Source of the DNA: Pseudomonadota bacterium
GTDB lineage: Bacteria > Pseudomonadota > Gammaproteobacteria > Competibacterales > Competibacteraceae
DNA: 32,248 bases
Assembly (NCBI GenBank): GCA_030917925.1
Contig: JAUPTV010000009.1
Span: 1 to 32,248 of the forward strand
Reading direction: 5' to 3'
The translations under genes and the position numbers were made by a program. Numbering within the stretch: the first letter of the stretch is position 1; each line of letters opens with the position of its first letter. Shown here piece by piece: positions 15,285-28,110 of the stretch. The notes beneath the pieces were generated by a model. That model had not been told where the DNA came from and did not search any database. It saw only the letters and a program-made list of their open reading frames with translations.

Positions 15285-16178
15285 ATGAACTCTCAAAGAT
15301 TGGAGGCAGCGATTGTTCGATCAGTCAACTACAGTTTTCAACTTTTGATCGTCTCGGATTCCAGAGTGAAAATCGATCAACTCGCGTCACGGCTGGAAAA
15401 AATCGGCTACTCCTTTATTGAAAGACAGTCGGCCATGGAGGTTAAGTGGTTGGAGACGCTGCGCCCCAATGTCATTGTGATTTGTTGTCCAGCAATTTAT
15501 ATCGGGTTGATGGAGAAAATAACGCTCTTCGACTGGGCGCGCCAGATTCCAGTGATTTGCTTGATCAGCATTCATAATAAATCTCAACTTTTTATGCTGG
15601 TTAATGCCGGTATTACTGATTTTATGTTTAGACCTTTTGAGCCTGAGGATCTGGAAGCGCGAGTGTTATTGCACCTGAAAAAGTCTCTCAATCAAGGTAT
15701 TCAAGGGGTTTGTTATCCGATTGTGGAGCGGCGCAATAGTGAGCGTCGGAAGTCGGCACAGCCGGTTGCAGAACTGGTTAATTTCGTTAGTGTTGGCCCG
15801 GACTCCGCGCTTTCGATTCATTTGGCTAAAAAGGAAGTTTTTCTCAATGGACAATTGCTGTCTCTGACCCCGAAAGAATTTGCGCTGCTGGCGCTGTTGG
15901 CTTCCGATCCGGGACGGGTATTTCCTGATCAGGAAATTCTGATTCGCCTGTGGAGTGATAGTAAATATGCATCGAGCGCTGATATTGCGCAGTATGTGCA
16001 TCGGTTGAGAAAGAAGTTGGGCGATGATCCCTGCTGCCCGAAGTGGATTTTGAATGTGAAGCGGTTTGGTTATCGATTGAACCCAAACCCGGAGATCCAG
16101 TCTTCCTGCGCGGCGTTACCCGTTGAGCCTCAATCTGCGCCGGAATGTTGCGATACCCGTATTTTTGCGGCCCACTGA
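15285..16178 (+). CDS. OmpR-type regulator with pseudo-receiver domain
   Basis: The 297-aa protein has a receiver-like domain (about 18-135) and an OmpR/PhoB winged-helix domain (about 180-265: LSLTPKEFALLALLASDPGRVF and YVHRLRKKLGDDP). The receiver lacks the phosphorylation chemistry. The acidic pair is reduced to SD (24-25). The phospho-acceptor position is Cys67 (PNVIVICCPAIY). The conserved Lys is Arg116 (DFMFRPF). It probably works without phosphorylation, or through ligand binding, protein contact or cysteine chemistry. A ribosome-binding site, GGGGAG, lies eight bases upstream. It follows the PAS-GGDEF gene by 144 bp on the same strand, suggesting a functional pair, and precedes the DsbA-like gene by 22 bp. 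Target genes are unknown. Confidence 0.87.
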   Translation: MNSQRLEAAIVRSVNYSFQLLIVSDSRVKIDQLASRLEKIGYSFIERQSAMEVKWLETLRPNVIVICCPAIYIGLMEKITLFDWARQIPVICLISIHNKSQLFMLVNAGITDFMFRPFEPEDLEARVLLHLKKSLNQGIQGVCYPIVERRNSERRKSAQPVAELVNFVSVGPDSALSIHLAKKEVFLNGQLLSLTPKEFALLALLASDPGRVFPDQEILIRLWSDSKYASSADIAQYVHRLRKKLGDDPCCPKWILNVKRFGYRLNPNPEIQSSCAALPVEPQSAPECCDTRIFAAH

Positions 16179-17170: not shown

Positions 17171-17227
17171 ATTCCCCTCCTTGGCTAAGGAGGGGTGGCG
17201 CGAAGCGCCGGGGTGGTTCGGGAGGTC
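17171..17227 (+). repeat. Dispersed palindromic repeat, copy A
   Basis: This 57-bp element starts with CCCCTCCTTGGCTAAGGAGG and continues with GGCGCGAAGCGCC and GGGGTGGTTCGGGAGGTC; the first two parts are palindromes. Close copies lie at 20167-20217 (minus orientation) and 31320-31376. Copies A and B flank the Cys-rich protein gene in opposite orientation. It is probably a REP/MITE-like element. Confidence 0.75.
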
Positions 17228-17339
17228 CGCTGATCAGCCGATCATGGCTGATAGTGGTGCCCTCAATAATTGGGTTGTGGCTAAATCTAATGAGCCGGTC
17301 ATCCAGCTTGCACCTGCTATTTTTGCAAATCCCCCTGAT

Positions 17340-17356
17340 ATTAACATTCCGTTAAT
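17340..17356. promoter_or_regulatory. Palindromic operator candidate, copy 1
   Basis: ATTAACATTCCGTTAAT has perfect 6-bp arms (ATTAAC and GTTAAT) around ATTCC. Confidence 0.55.
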
Positions 17357-17412
17357 TGAATTCTGCCCGGCACTTTGTTTCTTGCGCTTGCTGTTTTTCA
17401 AATCCCCTTGAC

Positions 17413-17429
17413 GTTAACATTCCGTTAAT
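17413..17429. promoter_or_regulatory. Palindromic operator candidate, copy 2
   Basis: GTTAACATTCCGTTAAT has 5-bp perfect arms with the same ATTCC spacer as copy 1. Confidence 0.55.
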
Positions 17430-17490
17430 TGAATTCTGCCTGGCGCTTTGTTTCTTGCGCCTGCTGTTTTTGCAAATATCCATGACGTTA

Positions 17491-17507
17491 ATTAACATTC
17501 TGTTAAT
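17491..17507. promoter_or_regulatory. Palindromic operator candidate, copy 3
   Basis: ATTAACATTCTGTTAAT keeps perfect 6-bp arms although the spacer has changed by one base. Conservation of the arms over the spacer is what a protein-binding site would show. Confidence 0.55.
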
Positions 17508-17566
17508 TTAATTCGGCCTGGCACTTTCTTTGCTTGCGCCTGCTTTTTTTTGCAAATCCACCTAAC

Positions 17567-17583
17567 ATTAATATTCCGTTAAT
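17567..17583. promoter_or_regulatory. Palindromic operator candidate, copy 4 (promoter-proximal)
   Basis: ATTAATATTCCGTTAAT carries one arm mismatch. Its centre (17575) lies 32 bp before the TAGAGT -10-like element, the same distance as in the copy at 23606-23620. That places it around -44 from the predicted transcription start, near the position of a class II activator site. Confidence 0.6.
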
Positions 17584-17612
17584 TGAATCATGCCTGGCGC
17601 TTTCACTAGAGT
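17583..17612 (+). promoter_or_regulatory. Predicted promoter of the riboswitch-controlled Cys-rich gene
   Basis: TTGAAT (17583-17588) and TAGAGT (17607-17612) are separated by 18 bp and lie just upstream of the riboswitch core. The -10 match is weak, which fits a promoter that needs an activator at the adjoining palindrome. Confidence 0.45.
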
Positions 17613-17618
17613 AGTGCG

Positions 17619-17697
17619 GCGAGAAAGGCAAACCTGCTGCGAGGCAGAGGCGCAAAGCTTCGGATCTCATTAGAGATGGCTGGGCTGCCGAGGGCGA
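17619..17697 (+). promoter_or_regulatory. Cyclic di-GMP class I (GEMM-I) riboswitch upstream of the Cys-rich secreted protein
   Basis: The core GGCAAACC, a P2 hairpin with a GCGA loop (CTGCT/GGCAG), GGCGCAAAGC, a second hairpin (ATCTC/GAGAT) and GGCTGGGCTGCCGAGG occur in the order of the GEMM-I consensus. The G just before CAAACC corresponds to the G20 that favours c-di-GMP over cGAMP in the known class. About 120 nt separate it from the start codon at 17818. A hairpin without a U-run lies between (about 17769-17797), so control may be translational or through an alternative fold; I see no clear terminator. Confidence 0.9.
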
Positions 17698-17817
17698 CAA
17701 CGCTGGATGCCGGGATGCGTGGAGTATGAAGCGAGGGAAGGCAGGCGTTAGTCGCTAAATTCCTGGCGGGAAGCAATCGGACCCGCTGGATAGGCAAAAC
17801 CTCGAGGAGGATAGTTC

Positions 17818-20022
17818 ATGCTTACTCAATATTCATGTAGGCGCGGCGGAGTAAAGAAGTGGGCAGGCTTGGCCAGCACCACGGCTTTGTTGCTCGGTCT
17901 GGGGTTGTCCAATCATGCGCTGGCGGTGCAAAGCCCACCTGGCTGTAATGCTAACACCCTCAACCTGACTCTGAGCCGGTCCACCGCCGTGGCGGTTCCT
18001 GGTCAGACCGTGACCTTTGGCGTCAGCGTAGCGGTGCCTACGACCGATGGTGCCGGCGTCCCGGCCTGTGATACGGCTGATGTCGATATTACGGCTCAGT
18101 GTCCGGATGGGGCTAATAACGTTCCGCCAACAACGCCGGTGCAGACGTTGGTCACCGACGCGGATTATCCGGCAGGTACGCCTCCGACCCCGGTCGGGTC
18201 GATTGACTGCGTTATGCCCGACGTGCCAGCCGTCCAGGCGGTCAGCGCCTATTCGCAAGCCGATGGTTTGTTGCTGGATACGGATCTGCTCGCGGGTAGC
18301 CCGTTTACCCGGTCCAACACCATTACGGTCACCGTCACGCCGTGCCAGGTCCAGGTTGACAAGCAGGTGTCCTGCGATGGTGGGGCAACCTGGGTTGATC
18401 CAAGTCTGGTGCTGAACAATGAGGACGGCACCCTGAATTGCTCCGTCATTGGTCTGGCCGGGCCTGTCCAGGTGCGCTATCAAGCAGCCAATACCAGCGA
18501 GAGTTGTTTGCTGACGGAGTGCGTGCTGACGGAAACCAACGGAGCCTTTGGTACGCCGCCAGTGGTTGGTGCCATCCCTCCGGGCGTAACGACCGACTTC
18601 CTGCCGGCCGCAAACACTCCGGCCTGCTCCGATGCTTATGGCGATCCAGCAAACCCGAATGAGCCTAATACCGCGACGATCACCTGTCAGACCGGCGGCG
18701 AACCGGTTACGGCGAGCGATACTGCCAGCTTCAATTGCCTGGAGGTCGATGCGACGGTTGACCGGGCGGTCAATTGTGGCGAAGGCTTTGTCGATGAGAC
18801 CCAGGTTCGCAACAACGAAGATGGCACGAATGGCTGTACGGCTGTCGATGGTGAACCGGTCAACTGGCAGTACGCGGCCTGTAATGAAGGCACGGCCCCG
18901 TTGTATGACTGCACCCTCGTGGATCAGAACCTGACGGTCAGCAGCTCGATCATTGTGGGTAACCTGGCGGCGGGTGTCTGTGCGAATAATCTTCCTGCGA
19001 CCAACAATCCGGTACCTTGCAGTGATGCGCTGGAGGCGAGTGAAGCGCCCGATCAAGGCCGCGTTGATCTGACCTGCTGTATACAAGATGTTGGCAGCAT
19101 CGCCGACTGTGCGGAAGCCAATCGGGTCAACGTCTTTGACGTCTCGACCGTCGCCTGCTCCACGCCTTCCGGCCTGAATGCGATTAAGGAATGTGTGGAT
19201 ACCGACCTTGATGGTACGGCGGATAACGTTCGGGTGGTGGCCACTGCGACCGCTGGCGATTTGGGCTTCGTAGACTGCACCGCGACAGATACTATTTATC
19301 TGGACGATGCGACTTGCCCGCCCGTCGGCCCCGGCACCGACCTGCCACTGAGTCCGCAACCGTTTACTCTGGCTCCTACCGCTTCGCATGAGCTGTTTGG
19401 AACCATCGCTCCGCCGTTGGATCAGGATGCCTGCAACACCGCATCGGTAACCTGCACCATCGAAGGAACCACAGAAACCGTTACGGCTGTGGCCCCACCG
19501 GTCGTCTGCGACTTCCAGGAGCGTGCCGGCTGCTTCACGCGGACCCCAGGTTTCTGGTCAACGCATCCGGGTGATGATGATCGCATCGGCACTTACGATT
19601 TCCTGCCGCAGACTGTTTGTGGTACGGAACTCGATAACGTCCTGGCTGGCAACGGTAACTCGGCCATTGAAGCCATGTGCTCAGTGGGCAAGGATGGCAA
19701 GATTCTGGGTGAGCAGAATACGCAATTGATCCGTCAGTGCACCGCGGCCTACCTGAACGTGGCGGCGACCCTGGCTAACGAAGGCGACTGCGGCTCCGGG
19801 ACTAACATTGAGACCTTGTTGGATAACTGCTGCGATGCCGCCAGCGCCTGCACGGGAGAGGACACCGGCATGAGCGTCAACGAATGTATCACCGCATTGG
19901 ATACGTTCAACAACAGCGAGGATACCCTGGATCCGGATGCGTTCGCCAACCCGGGTAGCGCTAATCCGACGTACTGCCAGGATGCAAAGAACAACGGCGT
20001 CGTGGTACACCCGGCTCCGTAG
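17818..20022 (+). CDS. Large Cys-rich secreted protein, riboswitch-controlled
   Basis: The 734-aa protein has a signal peptide ending near NHALA-VQS (about residue 36). The mature chain is acidic, Thr/Val/Pro-rich and has dozens of cysteines. Its beta-rich middle has loosely repeated units with the motif NNEDGT and CS(D/A) segments, reminiscent of DUF11-like or Ig-like extracellular repeats. From about residue 570 a distinct C-terminal module begins (ERAGCFTRTPGFWSTHPGDDD) and runs to the end with further cysteines. No enzyme motif is seen. The likely role is a disulfide-stabilised surface or matrix protein. AGGAGG is well placed before the ATG. Upstream are a GEMM-I riboswitch and four operator-like palindromes; a strong terminator follows. 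The DsbA-like protein upstream could assist folding. I do not recognise a named family for the full length. Confidence 0.85.
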   Translation: MLTQYSCRRGGVKKWAGLASTTALLLGLGLSNHALAVQSPPGCNANTLNLTLSRSTAVAVPGQTVTFGVSVAVPTTDGAGVPACDTADVDITAQCPDGANNVPPTTPVQTLVTDADYPAGTPPTPVGSIDCVMPDVPAVQAVSAYSQADGLLLDTDLLAGSPFTRSNTITVTVTPCQVQVDKQVSCDGGATWVDPSLVLNNEDGTLNCSVIGLAGPVQVRYQAANTSESCLLTECVLTETNGAFGTPPVVGAIPPGVTTDFLPAANTPACSDAYGDPANPNEPNTATITCQTGGEPVTASDTASFNCLEVDATVDRAVNCGEGFVDETQVRNNEDGTNGCTAVDGEPVNWQYAACNEGTAPLYDCTLVDQNLTVSSSIIVGNLAAGVCANNLPATNNPVPCSDALEASEAPDQGRVDLTCCIQDVGSIADCAEANRVNVFDVSTVACSTPSGLNAIKECVDTDLDGTADNVRVVATATAGDLGFVDCTATDTIYLDDATCPPVGPGTDLPLSPQPFTLAPTASHELFGTIAPPLDQDACNTASVTCTIEGTTETVTAVAPPVVCDFQERAGCFTRTPGFWSTHPGDDDRIGTYDFLPQTVCGTELDNVLAGNGNSAIEAMCSVGKDGKILGEQNTQLIRQCTAAYLNVAATLANEGDCGSGTNIETLLDNCCDAASACTGEDTGMSVNECITALDTFNNSEDTLDPDAFANPGSANPTYCQDAKNNGVVVHPAP

Positions 20023-20082
20023 TTTCAGCGCCATCCCGCTAAGGCAGAAAGATTAACTTTCTGTTGTTAGGGACTAGGAAGT

Positions 20083-20117
20083 AAACCCGTCAGGGAAACC
20101 TGGCGGGTTTTTTTTGG
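20083..20117 (+). terminator. Intrinsic terminator after the Cys-rich protein gene
   Basis: AAACCCGtCAGG and CCTGgCGGGTTT form a stem with a GAAA loop, followed by an uninterrupted run of T (20108-20115). Confidence 0.92.
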
Positions 20118-20166
20118 TTCCGGGGTTTTTCGACTACCCGTCTTTCCGGCTGATTAGCGGGTATTC

Positions 20167-20217
20167 CGAACCACCCCGGCGCTTCGCGCCACCCCTCCTT
20201 GGCCAAGGAGGGGAATT
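20167..20217 (-). repeat. Dispersed palindromic repeat, copy B (inverted)
   Basis: Reverse complement of the element at 17171-17227, with CTCCTTGGCCAAGGAG as the palindromic core and GGCGCTTCGCGCC beside it. It lies between the terminators of two convergent genes. Confidence 0.75.
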
Positions 20218-20253
20218 CAGTAGTCCCGCGATCATTGGGAAAGACAATAACTG

Positions 20254-20287
20254 TGCAAAAGAAACCCGCCGGTGATTTCCGGCGGGT
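20254..20287 (-). terminator. Intrinsic terminator after the Ig-repeat protein gene
   Basis: On the minus strand ACCCGCCGG pairs with CCGGCGGGT across a 6-nt loop, followed by TTTCTTTT. Confidence 0.9.
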
Positions 20288-20310
20288 ACCTTAGCTTGCG
20301 GTTGCGCGGT

Positions 20311-22950
20311 TTATGGCGCGTAACGCACGAGGTAGCCGTCGGTGCTGCCGACTACCGTGGACATCAGGCCGCCACCGAGGTCGATACCCTTGTAGAAACT
20401 GCCGGTAGCAACGACCTCGCCCGCGTCATCAAGGGCAATGCTATTGCTGTAGTCATCCCAGTCCACTCCGGCACCTTTCGACCAGAGAAGCGCCCCACTG
20501 GCATCATATTTGGCGATAAACACATCGGTAGAGCCGTTGCCGAAGTGATAAGCGCCACCCACGTCGATCCAGCTCAGGAAAGTACCCGTGGCCGCAATCT
20601 CGCCTGAGGCATTGACAGCCAGGCCATTAACAGCGTCGTTATTGCTCCCGCCAAGCTTGCGAACCCACTGTACGGCACCCGTCGGTGAATACTGCGCCAG
20701 AGCAATATCCACATAACCGGCGCTGGTCAGCGGCTGCCCGCTAAAGTTGACTGAACCCTCGAAGTGCGCAGCGAGTACCACATTGCCGAAGCCATCCATC
20801 GCGATGCGACGTCCACTGTCGCGACTAGCGCCGCCCTCCCGCCAGGAATAAGGGAATGTTCCATTAGCGGAGAAGTTGGCGATGAAGGCATCGGTGTAGC
20901 CGGCGCTGGTCAATGACCCGTCGCCGAAGTCAATCGTGCCCTGGAAGGAGCCAGTGAACCAGGGACTGCCGCTACCATCCACCGCTATCCCTAATCCTTC
21001 ATCGGTCGATGATCCACCGAACGACTTGGACCACAAATGAGCGCCACTCGAAGAATATTTGGCTACAAAGACATCCCGGCTACCGCTGACGGTATTTAGC
21101 GTACTCCCGCCTAAAGTCGCAGCGCCCTGAATATATCCAGTCAGGAACAGATTGCCCGAAGCATCCACTGCCAGCGCCTGCGCCGCTTCTGATCCAGTAC
21201 TGCCAAAGCGCTTGGCCCACTGATATTGTCCCGTGCTCGAGTACTTGACCAAGTACATATCATAGCCGCCCGCACTGGTCAGCGCTGCGCCGCCGAAATC
21301 AATAGTGCCAAAGAAGTACCCGGTGACCACCACCGAGCCATCGGGGTTGACGATCAAACCGCGTGGGTAAAACTCGGCGCTCTCCTGGCGGGTCCACAGC
21401 CGCGACCACTGAATGTCGCCCGATGCGCTGTACTTGGCCAGCATGATGCCGCCTTTGCTGGTCTTGAGACCATCGCCGAACTCTACGGCCCCGCTGACCT
21501 GAGCGGCTACGAACACATTCCCCCAGGAGTCGATAGCGGTCGCTTGCCCGGCAGCAACGTCTTCCGTGGTGTCACCGCCAAAATGCAGCGACCAAAGGTG
21601 TGCGCCGGTGCTGGCCGTGGCGATATTCACACTCAGGCTAACGGCAGTAGATACCTTGCTATTCCCCGCTGCGTCATACGCTTTCGCGGTCCAGCTATGG
21701 CTACCGTTAGCAGCGCTGCTGATGCTCCAGCTATAGCTGTACGGTGCCGCCGTGTCTGTCCCTTTCAGCGTCGCGCCATCGTAAAACTCCACCTTACTGA
21801 CGCCCACGTTGTCGCTGGCTGAGGCTGTAATAGCCACAGTTTGTGCGATGGTGTAGGTCGTGCCCGAGGTGGGACTGGAGAGGGACACGGTTGGCGCAGT
21901 GGTGTCCGTCGTGGCGATATTCACCGTTAAACTGACCGTGCTGGACGTGGCCGCATTTCCGGCAGCGTCGAAGGCTTTTGCCGTCCAACTGTGCGTACCG
22001 TTGCTGGAACTGGAGACCGACCAGGCATGGCTGAACGGCGAAGCGGTATCGGTACTCTGCAAAGCGCCATTGCGATAAAACTCCACCTTACTGACGCCCA
22101 CGTTGTCGCTGGCCGAAGCCACAAGGGTCACGGTCTGGGCCGAGGTGTAGGTCGTCCCCGAAGTGGGGCTGGAGATGGACACGGTGGGCGCGGTGGTGTC
22201 CGTCGTCGCAATATTGACCGTTAAGCTGGTCTCGGTAGAAGTCTTGTTATTTCCCATCGCGTCATAAGCTTTGGCCATCCAGCGGTGGCTGCCATTGGTG
22301 GAACTGGAGACGGGCCAGGCATGGCTGAACGGCGAGACGGTATCAGTACTTTGCAGAGCGCCATCTTTATAGAACTCGACCTTGTTCACGCCCACGTTGT
22401 CGCTGGCCGAAGCGGCAACGGTCACGGTCTGAGCGGTGGTGTAGGTCGTGCCCGAGGTGGGGCTGGAGATCGACACGGTTGGTGCGGTGGTGTCCGCTGT
22501 GGCGATATTGACCGTTAAGCTGACGGCGCTGCATGTGGCCGCGTTCCGGGTGGCGTCGAAGGCCTTGGCCGTCCAACTGTGCGTACCGTTATTGGAACTG
22601 GTAAAGCTCCACGCACAACCATAGGGACTGCTGGTATCGGTGCATTTAAGAACACCGTTTTGATAAAACTCGACCTTGCTGACTCCGATATTGTCAGACG
22701 CAGAAGCAGCAATGTTCACGGTTTGCGCCGCTGTATAACCCGCCCCCGAAGCCGGACTGGTGATTGAAACGCTCGGCGCGATCTTGTCTTTACCCCCCCC
22801 AGGTGCCGCTTTAGCAACACTGCTCAGACCGGCAAAAGCAATCCCGCCAATCATTAAATAAGTAAATCCCTTGAAGATTCGTCTCTTCTGTTGGGATTGA
22901 TAAAGAAGATGACTAATTTGTGCACGATTAGGCACAGAAGACTTAAACAT
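20311..22950 (-). CDS. Secreted protein with four Ig-like repeats and an SBBP-type beta-propeller
   Basis: The 879-aa protein has a long-tailed signal peptide ending near VAKA-APGG (about residue 48). Four Ig-like repeats of 98 residues follow (about 55-446), each with (T)APTVSISSP, a YT.AQTV. segment, ASASDNVGVSKVEFY, and a closing TAKA.DA.GN. The C-terminal half (about 446-879) is an array of short propeller-type repeats of the SBBP kind (LWSLHFGG, AIDSWGNVFVAAQVSGAVEFG and similar). Such architectures occur in adhesins and matrix proteins. The first Ig repeat has three cysteines absent from the others. GAGGAGG precedes the ATG at 22950, and a GEMM-I riboswitch lies upstream. The gene is convergent with the Cys-rich protein gene, which is controlled in the same way. 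Confidence 0.88.
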   Translation of the reverse strand: MFKSSVPNRAQISHLLYQSQQKRRIFKGFTYLMIGGIAFAGLSSVAKAAPGGGKDKIAPSVSITSPASGAGYTAAQTVNIAASASDNIGVSKVEFYQNGVLKCTDTSSPYGCAWSFTSSNNGTHSWTAKAFDATRNAATCSAVSLTVNIATADTTAPTVSISSPTSGTTYTTAQTVTVAASASDNVGVNKVEFYKDGALQSTDTVSPFSHAWPVSSSTNGSHRWMAKAYDAMGNNKTSTETSLTVNIATTDTTAPTVSISSPTSGTTYTSAQTVTLVASASDNVGVSKVEFYRNGALQSTDTASPFSHAWSVSSSSNGTHSWTAKAFDAAGNAATSSTVSLTVNIATTDTTAPTVSLSSPTSGTTYTIAQTVAITASASDNVGVSKVEFYDGATLKGTDTAAPYSYSWSISSAANGSHSWTAKAYDAAGNSKVSTAVSLSVNIATASTGAHLWSLHFGGDTTEDVAAGQATAIDSWGNVFVAAQVSGAVEFGDGLKTSKGGIMLAKYSASGDIQWSRLWTRQESAEFYPRGLIVNPDGSVVVTGYFFGTIDFGGAALTSAGGYDMYLVKYSSTGQYQWAKRFGSTGSEAAQALAVDASGNLFLTGYIQGAATLGGSTLNTVSGSRDVFVAKYSSSGAHLWSKSFGGSSTDEGLGIAVDGSGSPWFTGSFQGTIDFGDGSLTSAGYTDAFIANFSANGTFPYSWREGGASRDSGRRIAMDGFGNVVLAAHFEGSVNFSGQPLTSAGYVDIALAQYSPTGAVQWVRKLGGSNNDAVNGLAVNASGEIAATGTFLSWIDVGGAYHFGNGSTDVFIAKYDASGALLWSKGAGVDWDDYSNSIALDDAGEVVATGSFYKGIDLGGGLMSTVVGSTDGYLVRYAP
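21612..22788 (-). repeat. Four 294-bp tandem repeats encoding Ig-like domains
   Basis: Four in-frame units of 98 codons repeat within the Ig/propeller gene. Units 2 and 3 are nearly identical at DNA level over long stretches, while units 1 and 4 are more diverged. This favours recombination-driven change in repeat number and is a place where short-read assembly may have collapsed copies. Confidence 0.8.
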
Positions 22951-23008
22951 GGCAATGCCTCCTCACGAGATGGCGAATTCAATAAATAGTGCCCGTGGGA
23001 AAGCAATA

Positions 23009-23093
23009 CCCGTCCGGCAACCTGTCTGCCTTATCCCCGGAGGGACTTAGGCCATGGTTTTGCGTCCCACTCTTTCAAGTGGTTTGCCTTTAT
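23009..23093 (-). promoter_or_regulatory. Cyclic di-GMP class I (GEMM-I) riboswitch upstream of the Ig-repeat protein
   Basis: Read on the minus strand: AAAGGCAAACC, a P2 hairpin CCACTT-GAAA-GAGTGG, GGGACGCAAAACC, then ATGGCCTAAG, a second hairpin and GGTTGCCGGACGG. This follows the GEMM-I consensus closely, including the GNRA loop, the GGGACGCAAA segment and the c-di-GMP-type G before CAAACC. The gene's start codon lies about 60 nt downstream with GAGGAGG as ribosome-binding site. No terminator is visible between them, so translational control is the simpler reading. Confidence 0.93.
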
Positions 23094-23107
23094 CGAACGC
23101 TTCTCGC

Positions 23108-23137
23108 GTAATAATAAATGAATAATAAACCGGTCAA
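23108..23137 (-). promoter_or_regulatory. Predicted promoter of the Ig-repeat protein gene
   Basis: On the minus strand TTGACC (23137-23132) is followed after 17-18 bp by TTATTA/TATTAC (23114-23108). The predicted start falls a few bases before the riboswitch, as expected. Confidence 0.5.
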
Positions 23138-23605
23138 TCAGTTCGGTTCGGCTCGGGTTAATTGACTTTAACTTATCCGGCTGTTTTTTGTTTTTGAAGC
23201 TAAAATCAGCTATGGAAACGGCATTTTCCATGCCATTTTTTATCAATTAAAATTCTGAGAGTGTGGCTAATAAATATCCATACAAACATCAAAAATCAAC
23301 TAGAGGTTAAATTTGCCAATATTTATTGGAATTTGTTTTGATATCAATTGATATAATGACAAATAAAGACCATATAAAAAGTCAAATTTTTCGTAACAAA
23401 ATTATCCTGACTGACTTTTTTTGTCACCTAAACCACGATATTCAGGCCAAAATAGACCGCTTTTAACAGTAAAATCATAAAATTAAAAGCTTTATGACCT
23501 TTAAAGTCACTTATTGACAATTTACGTCATCCATTTTGGCCCGATGGAGTCCATCGTCAGGGCAACCGACAGAGGCATCAAAAACTGGTATTTAATTGAT
23601 TAACG

Positions 23606-23620
23606 TTAACATTCCGTTAA
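23606..23620. promoter_or_regulatory. Palindromic operator candidate, single copy upstream of the HTH gene
   Basis: TTAACATTCCGTTAA is identical to the core of copies 1 and 2 at 17340 and 17413. Its centre is 32 bp before TAGAGT at 23645-23650, exactly as at 17575/17607. Confidence 0.6.
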
Positions 23621-23642
23621 TTTAATTCCAGGTTAGGCTTTT

Positions 23643-23650
23643 TATAGAGT
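23643..23650 (+). promoter_or_regulatory. Predicted -10 element of the HTH gene
   Basis: TATAGAGT overlaps TATAGA and TAGAGT readings of a -10 hexamer. TTAATT lies upstream at -35 distance, next to the palindrome. The start codon is about 65 bp downstream. Confidence 0.4.
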
Positions 23651-23714: not shown

Positions 23715-24179
23715 ATGCACGGGGAAAGTCGCTCTGCGGTCATGAAAGCAAACTGGCTATTTGATGCACGAAAAATACCCGATGATGTCATGAGTTATCT
23801 TCGTCGGATCGCGGTTCGTGCGGTGGAAGAAAAAAGCTACAGCCCTGAACTCATTGCGGATATTTTCGGAATTAGCCGCAGCAGCGTTTATGACTGGCTG
23901 CGCCGGTACCGCAAAAAAGGGGAGAACGCTCTGGATACCCAGCCGGCGCCAGGCGCACCACGGGTTATCACTCCCAACATGGACCAGTGGCTCAGAGAAA
24001 CCATTATGGAATCAACACCAGGTGATTATGGCTATGATGCGAAAACCGAGTGGACGCATAGTCTGCTGGCCGATTTACTGAAAAAGCAGTTTGGCGTTGA
24101 AGTGGCGGGTTCAACCGTCGGGTTGCACTTGCGCAATATGGATTTAAACGGCCACATACATAACCATCAAATCAAGTAA
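23715..24179 (+). CDS. Stand-alone IS630-type helix-turn-helix DNA-binding protein
   Basis: The 154-aa protein matches the N-terminal DNA-binding half of IS630-family transposases. It has a first HTH (about 35-75: SPELIADIFGISRSSVYDWLRRYRKKG), a GAPRVITPNMDQWLRETIM linker, and a second winged-helix (about 105-145: WTHSLLADLLKKQFGVEVAGSTVGLHLRNM). It stops where the transposase would continue into the DDE catalytic domain. No remnant of that domain follows and no terminal inverted repeats were seen. The reading frame is intact with GGAG eight bases upstream and its own promoter-like region. Either it is a remnant of an insertion sequence or it has been adopted as a transcription factor; the shared operator favours the second. 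Confidence 0.75.
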   Translation: MHGESRSAVMKANWLFDARKIPDDVMSYLRRIAVRAVEEKSYSPELIADIFGISRSSVYDWLRRYRKKGENALDTQPAPGAPRVITPNMDQWLRETIMESTPGDYGYDAKTEWTHSLLADLLKKQFGVEVAGSTVGLHLRNMDLNGHIHNHQIK

Positions 24180-27930: not shown

Positions 27931-28030
27931 TATTTTTCAGCTATGGAGTTCTGGATTTGACCATGGAGCTTGGAATCGCAAAGGGATTTGTTTGACAGGG
28001 ATTGTGGCAGGGATGATGGAAGTTTGAGCA

Positions 28031-28110
28031 GAAAAAGCTAAACCTGCCGCGAGACAGGGGCGGAAAGCCACAGGTCTTTTGTCATGGGAAGATTGCTGGG
28101 CTGCCTGGGA
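28031..28110 (+). promoter_or_regulatory. GEMM-I-type cyclic dinucleotide riboswitch upstream of the Flp pilin
   Basis: AAGCTAAACC, a P2 hairpin with a GCGA loop (CTGCC/GACAG), GGGGCGGAAAGCCACAGG, a second hairpin region and GCTGGGCTGCCTGGG follow the GEMM-I consensus in order. The core differs from the other two copies: CTAAACC instead of CAAACC, and GGGCGGAAAGCC instead of GGACGCAAAGCC. Ligand specificity (c-di-GMP or 3',3'-cGAMP) is therefore less sure. A terminator-like hairpin lies between it and the pilin gene. TTGACA at 27992-27997 is a candidate -35, with a poor -10. Confidence 0.85.

Follow-up and report, generated by a model that had tools for sequence, protein, structure and literature searches.

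A 21-nt core, probably a shared operator, before a gene with a c-di-GMP-I riboswitch and an HTH gene in a Competibacteraceae genome

The window analysed here is the whole stretch of 32,248 nucleotides of contig JAUPTV010000009.1 from a genome of the family Competibacteraceae (assembly GCA_030917925.1), and the features considered are collected in Table 1. The first locus in it consists of a tandem array, a riboswitch-bearing leader and a gene for a Cys-rich protein, for which no Pfam match, nothing convincing in NCBIfam, and no homologue among 38 family genomes were found. The aptamer in the leader passes the Rfam gathering threshold and is in itself unremarkable, and folding of the leader (17618-17840) gave a stability no greater than that of shuffles. 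Compared with other riboswitches of RF01051, the leader is a member of the class, and the putative operator array upstream is a feature added here. Note that the window contains three of the genome's five c-di-GMP-I riboswitches (17617-17692 on the + strand, 23013-23098 on the - strand, and 28028-28109 on the + strand), where they precede the Cys-rich gene, a gene for a Big_7/SBBP repeat protein, and (0.4 kb further) a prepilin peptidase gene, respectively; the three may form a c-di-GMP-controlled surface island. No literature on c-di-GMP riboswitches in Competibacter was found. A G+C-rich imperfect palindrome that resembles a dispersed repeat (CCCCTCCTTGGCTAAGGAGGGGTGGCGCGAAGCGCCGGGG, 17172-17220) is located just before the array.

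Table 1. Features of the two loci in the window and of the copy outside it
Feature	Position	Strand	Remarks
Candidate regulator, orphan, OmpR-type DNA-binding domain with degenerate receiver	15285..16178	+	C-terminal winged-helix Trans_reg_C (PF00486, 8e-21)
Tandem array, four 73-78 bp units, one core each	17307..17603	+	Tandem Repeats Finder, repeat families, unit alignment
Core copy 1	17341..17361	+	TTAACATTCCGTTAATTGAAT
Core copy 2	17414..17434	+	TTAACATTCCGTTAATTGAAT
Core copy 3	17492..17512	+	TTAACATTCTGTTAATTTAAT
Core copy 4 (promoter-proximal; imperfect left arm)	17568..17588	+	TTAATATTCCGTTAATTGAAT
Possible -35 in copy 4	17583-17588	+	TTGAAT
Putative -10, 32 bp from centre of copy 4	17607..17612	+	TAGAGT; position and hexamer only
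c-di-GMP-I riboswitch aptamer, leader of Cys-rich gene	17617..17692	+	RF01051, 54.4 bits (gathering score 35)
Putative target, 734-aa Cys-rich protein, signal-peptide-like N terminus	17818..20022	+	
Core copy 5	23606..23626	+	TTAACATTCCGTTAATTTAAT
Putative -10, 32 bp from centre of copy 5	23645..23650	+	TAGAGT
Putative target or possible regulator, 154-aa, N-terminal DNA-binding part of IS630 transposase	23715..24179	+	
Sixth core copy	C105:24461		TTAACACTCTGTTAATTGAAT; outside window

At the second locus, core copy 5 precedes a gene for an HTH protein, which was assigned to Pfam HTH_32/HTH_33 and fell below the NCBIfam cut-off for IS630. The protein shows 59-63% identity to longer ORFs in relatives (open frames of 340-368 aa), and of a full relative only residues 1-135 are matched in the window; neither a DDE catalytic domain of IS630 nor recognisable terminal repeats near the gene were found in the window. 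Thus, whereas its N-terminal DNA-binding part is like that of IS630-family transposases, the catalytic domain and the terminal repeats are absent here, and because it is an IS630 DNA-binding domain without the catalytic part, the gene product may be a target, the regulator itself, or a relic. The gene has its own ribosome-binding site (AAAGGAG) and a new N terminus. The intergenic region at 23250-23499 has 28% GC vs ~55-60% in the region. The sixth copy, on C105, sits between ORFs, with genes for STAS, CheA-type, and MCP proteins downstream.

The original prediction had described five palindromes of the form TTAAC-N5-GTTAA. Four exact ones were found in the window (17341, 17414, 17492, and 23606), the upstream coordinates having been given one base too low, and the copy at 17568, TTAATATTCCGTTAA, has one mismatch in its left arm (TTAAT); the proximal copy at the Cys-rich gene is therefore an imperfect palindrome. 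In the alignment of all copies, conservation reached rightward to TTKAAT, and the 21-nt core, TTAAYAYTCYGTTAATTKAAT, is a fuller description of the motif than the short palindrome. TTAA-N7-TTAA is present in all six core copies (6/6), TTKAAT is conserved on one side only, which makes the core asymmetric, and the spacer is fixed as ATTCY.

The spacing of 73-78 bp that had been noted for the upstream copies was confirmed, with 73, 78, and 76 bp between successive copies of the array. However, three of the five copies that had been taken as separate sites turned out to be repeats of a longer 73-78 bp unit, and within the array the core did not significantly exceed the remainder of the unit in conservation (18/23 vs 33/58 invariant columns, p = 0.08). 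It could be considered that there is no operator at all, and that the core copies are pieces of a dispersed repeat, which underwent tandem duplication ahead of the Cys-rich gene and is also present at two more sites. The position of four of the six copies inside a tandem repeat, the IS66 fragment adjoining the C105 copy and the IS630 fragment adjoining copy 5, and the occurrence of a core 16-mer inside a different three-copy repeat of another genus are consistent with this. We regard it as very unlikely, since copy 5 and the C105 copy have only the core (~23 bp) in common with the array unit while their flanks differ, all the copies are oriented alike relative to the next gene, and the distance to a -10-like hexamer does not vary.

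With one mismatch at most, TTAAC-N5-GTTAA occurred six times in the window (a count that includes an unrelated match at 23296) vs 0.42 expected, and 0 of 100 shuffles reached six. The genome-wide scan that had been proposed as a check gave opposite outcomes for the two forms of the motif. The short palindrome was not enriched (50 sites with one mismatch at most vs 114 for the reversed control), and a genome-wide regulon of this palindrome was rejected, whereas the extended core was enriched, with six sites in the 4.2-Mb genome vs 0 for the reversed control at the same threshold. The array at the Cys-rich gene accounts for four of these, and the others are copy 5 at the HTH gene and the copy on C105. 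The random expectation for the extended core with one mismatch at most is ~0.0003, a figure for which the degenerate positions had been picked after the copies were seen. A match with three mismatches at C256:9003, which lies in no ORF of at least 70 codons in the stretch examined, was not counted as a copy. None of the 38 other family genomes had the core, their matches all having two or three mismatches, and ~85,000 species genomes, when scanned, yielded seven isolated matches scattered over unrelated taxa, approximately the chance level; thus, as far as the collections searched show, the core appears to be private to this species. The core was also considered as a general partner of c-di-GMP riboswitches, and this was rejected, as it was absent from the DNA fetched around the aptamers of C283 and C268.

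The promoter-proximal copies had been predicted to be centred 32 bp before a TAGAGT element, and this spacing proved exact at both loci (17575/17607 and 23613/23645); the companion claim, that the distal copies have no such element at this distance, also held, a -10-like hexamer being absent at +32 of all distal array copies. Six identical bases at one offset within 45 nt downstream were obtained in ~0.8% of mononucleotide shuffles. At exactly +32 from its centre, the C105 copy has GAAAAT, which agrees with TATAAT at 4/6 positions including A2 and T6; hexamers of this grade occupy ~2% of the local positions there, and the C105 site was found afterwards. All three promoter-type sites have a -10-like hexamer at this +32 position. 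The starts predicted near 17619, 23657, and C105:24512 put the core centre at -44 and the beginning of the core at -51. Note that, with the aptamer model beginning at 17617, the start predicted at 17619 would lie 2 nt within it and can be approximate at best. The -35/-10 pairs are weak (4/6 and 3-4/6), and a consensus scan found no standalone sigma-70 promoter at the core-associated promoter sites; these therefore fit promoters that need the help of an activator.

OmpR-type proteins usually use direct repeats. The boxes of the ArcA, PhoB, and PmrA type are direct repeats with 11 bp from centre to centre, and the TTAA elements are 11 bp apart here as well; the ArcA element resembles GTTAATT of the core, whereas the core copies are better described by a dyad than by an 11-bp direct repeat. 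Extra elements beside an ArcA-type box are usual (PMC3798270). An ArcA site, suggested by GTTAATT and the 11-bp spacing, was rejected, the best match having 38% identity and 189 bits vs the ArcA cut-off of 334. In its arms and spacing, the core is the same as the CtrA box, TTAA-N7-TTAA (PMC4287350), of CtrA, an OmpR/PhoB-family regulator of Alphaproteobacteria, for which TTAAC-N5-GTTAAC is the published site (PMC7232146); by analogy, the TTAA-N7-TTAA layout suggests a regulator of the OmpR/PhoB type. CtrA sites near -35 are activating (PMC6180460). However, the CtrA regulon is global, whereas here there are six sites with the fixed spacer ATTCY and the one-sided TTKAAT. The site of ctrA P2 (one Caulobacter example) begins at -39, and the core begins at -51, thus approximately one helical turn further out. 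With E. coli ArcA as the query, no CtrA orthologue was recognised among the OmpR-type regulators of the genome: none of the ten full-length ArcA matches had a CtrA-like recognition helix, and the five scanned with NCBIfam missed the CtrA cut-off. Because neither a CtrA nor an ArcA orthologue was recognised, the core may be said to work like a CtrA site, by analogy, and not to belong to a CtrA regulon.

The layout of the array, with one proximal and three distal copies, is like that of Caulobacter pilA, which has one proximal CtrA site of lower affinity and three upstream sites that lower and delay expression (PMC11264516). Such lowering of expression would suit a repressor site: a dimer bound to the core, beside the -35, would keep RNA polymerase out, with the distal copies reinforcing the effect. 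In line with this, the putative -35 directly adjoins the core, and repressors commonly act on repeated operators. Nevertheless, we consider repression improbable, as the weakness of the -35/-10 pairs and the outcome of the consensus scan fit an activator-dependent promoter.

As for the binding protein, the orphan regulator at 15285-16178, 1.2 kb upstream of the array, would be the best placed candidate. In its receiver, the position of the phospho-acceptor Asp falls in VICCPAI, in an alignment where the Asp column is gapped, and Lys is replaced by Arg. No full-length relative was found in the 38 family genomes and a class sample of 368 others, and nothing was found in viral contigs; the regulator is as private as the core. 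In a genome with a DNA-binding domain 48% identical to that of the regulator, the core is absent. The HTH protein would be a second candidate: it might bind the core, autoregulate via copy 5, which lies at the promoter of its own gene, and control the Cys-rich gene via the array. The reading frame is uninterrupted throughout the DNA-binding part, with its own ribosome-binding site and new N terminus and with no catalytic remnant or nearby terminal repeats, and both the stand-alone form and the core are private to this genome. However, the terminal repeats of its relatives are unlike the core (by which an IS terminal repeat was also rejected as the source of the core), the gene may be a recent functionless truncation in a single genome, and the HTH protein alone does not explain the C105 copy; we thus think this role unlikely. 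That a transposase DNA-binding domain has become a bacterial transcription factor governing its own gene and, via an amplified array, a c-di-GMP-gated surface protein is, in our estimation, quite unlikely.

The proposal of one factor at both promoters is still the best reading, because within the genome the core is confined to three otherwise unrelated places and keeps the same distance to a -10-like hexamer at each of them. From these comparisons, an operator common to these promoters is well supported, and a single DNA-binding protein is probably in charge of a small private group of genes with surface and signalling functions. The more complete explanation, in which the core is the operator of one protein with a small, species-private regulon, acts in activation, and has distal copies for tuning, is given a probability of roughly 0.55; it rests on one genome and three promoters. 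The putative regulon would consist of the Cys-rich surface protein gene, the HTH gene, and probably the STAS-CheA-MCP genes on C105. The regulator would sit at approximately -44, directly upstream of the weak -35/-10 pair, and when bound would most likely recruit RNA polymerase. At the Cys-rich gene, the operator-bearing unit would have been tandemly duplicated to give the three distal copies, which may tune the response by delay, cooperativity, or titration, and the transcript would afterwards be gated by the c-di-GMP-I riboswitch. Activation, binding, the identity of the regulator, and the role of the distal copies are what we infer here from sequence. If true, this would be a compact private regulon in which a single surface gene combines control by a transcription factor with an amplified operator array and a c-di-GMP riboswitch. 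It would also represent a CtrA-type site in a genome where CtrA went unrecognised, and a case of the origin of an array by tandem duplication of a promoter-proximal unit and of a role for distal copies.

Retention of the core in the other genus of the family, suggested by the 16-mer match, was rejected, as the 16-mer belongs to the different three-copy repeat mentioned above. This repeat, GGTTACAAAAATTAACATTCYGTTAATCTTC, is located at L070:6827-6855, L071 6060-6088 (reverse), and G019:C36:9469-9497 (reverse), and two of its copies carry TTAACATTCYGTTAAT followed by a G+C hairpin and a T run, like a small RNA gene with a promoter.
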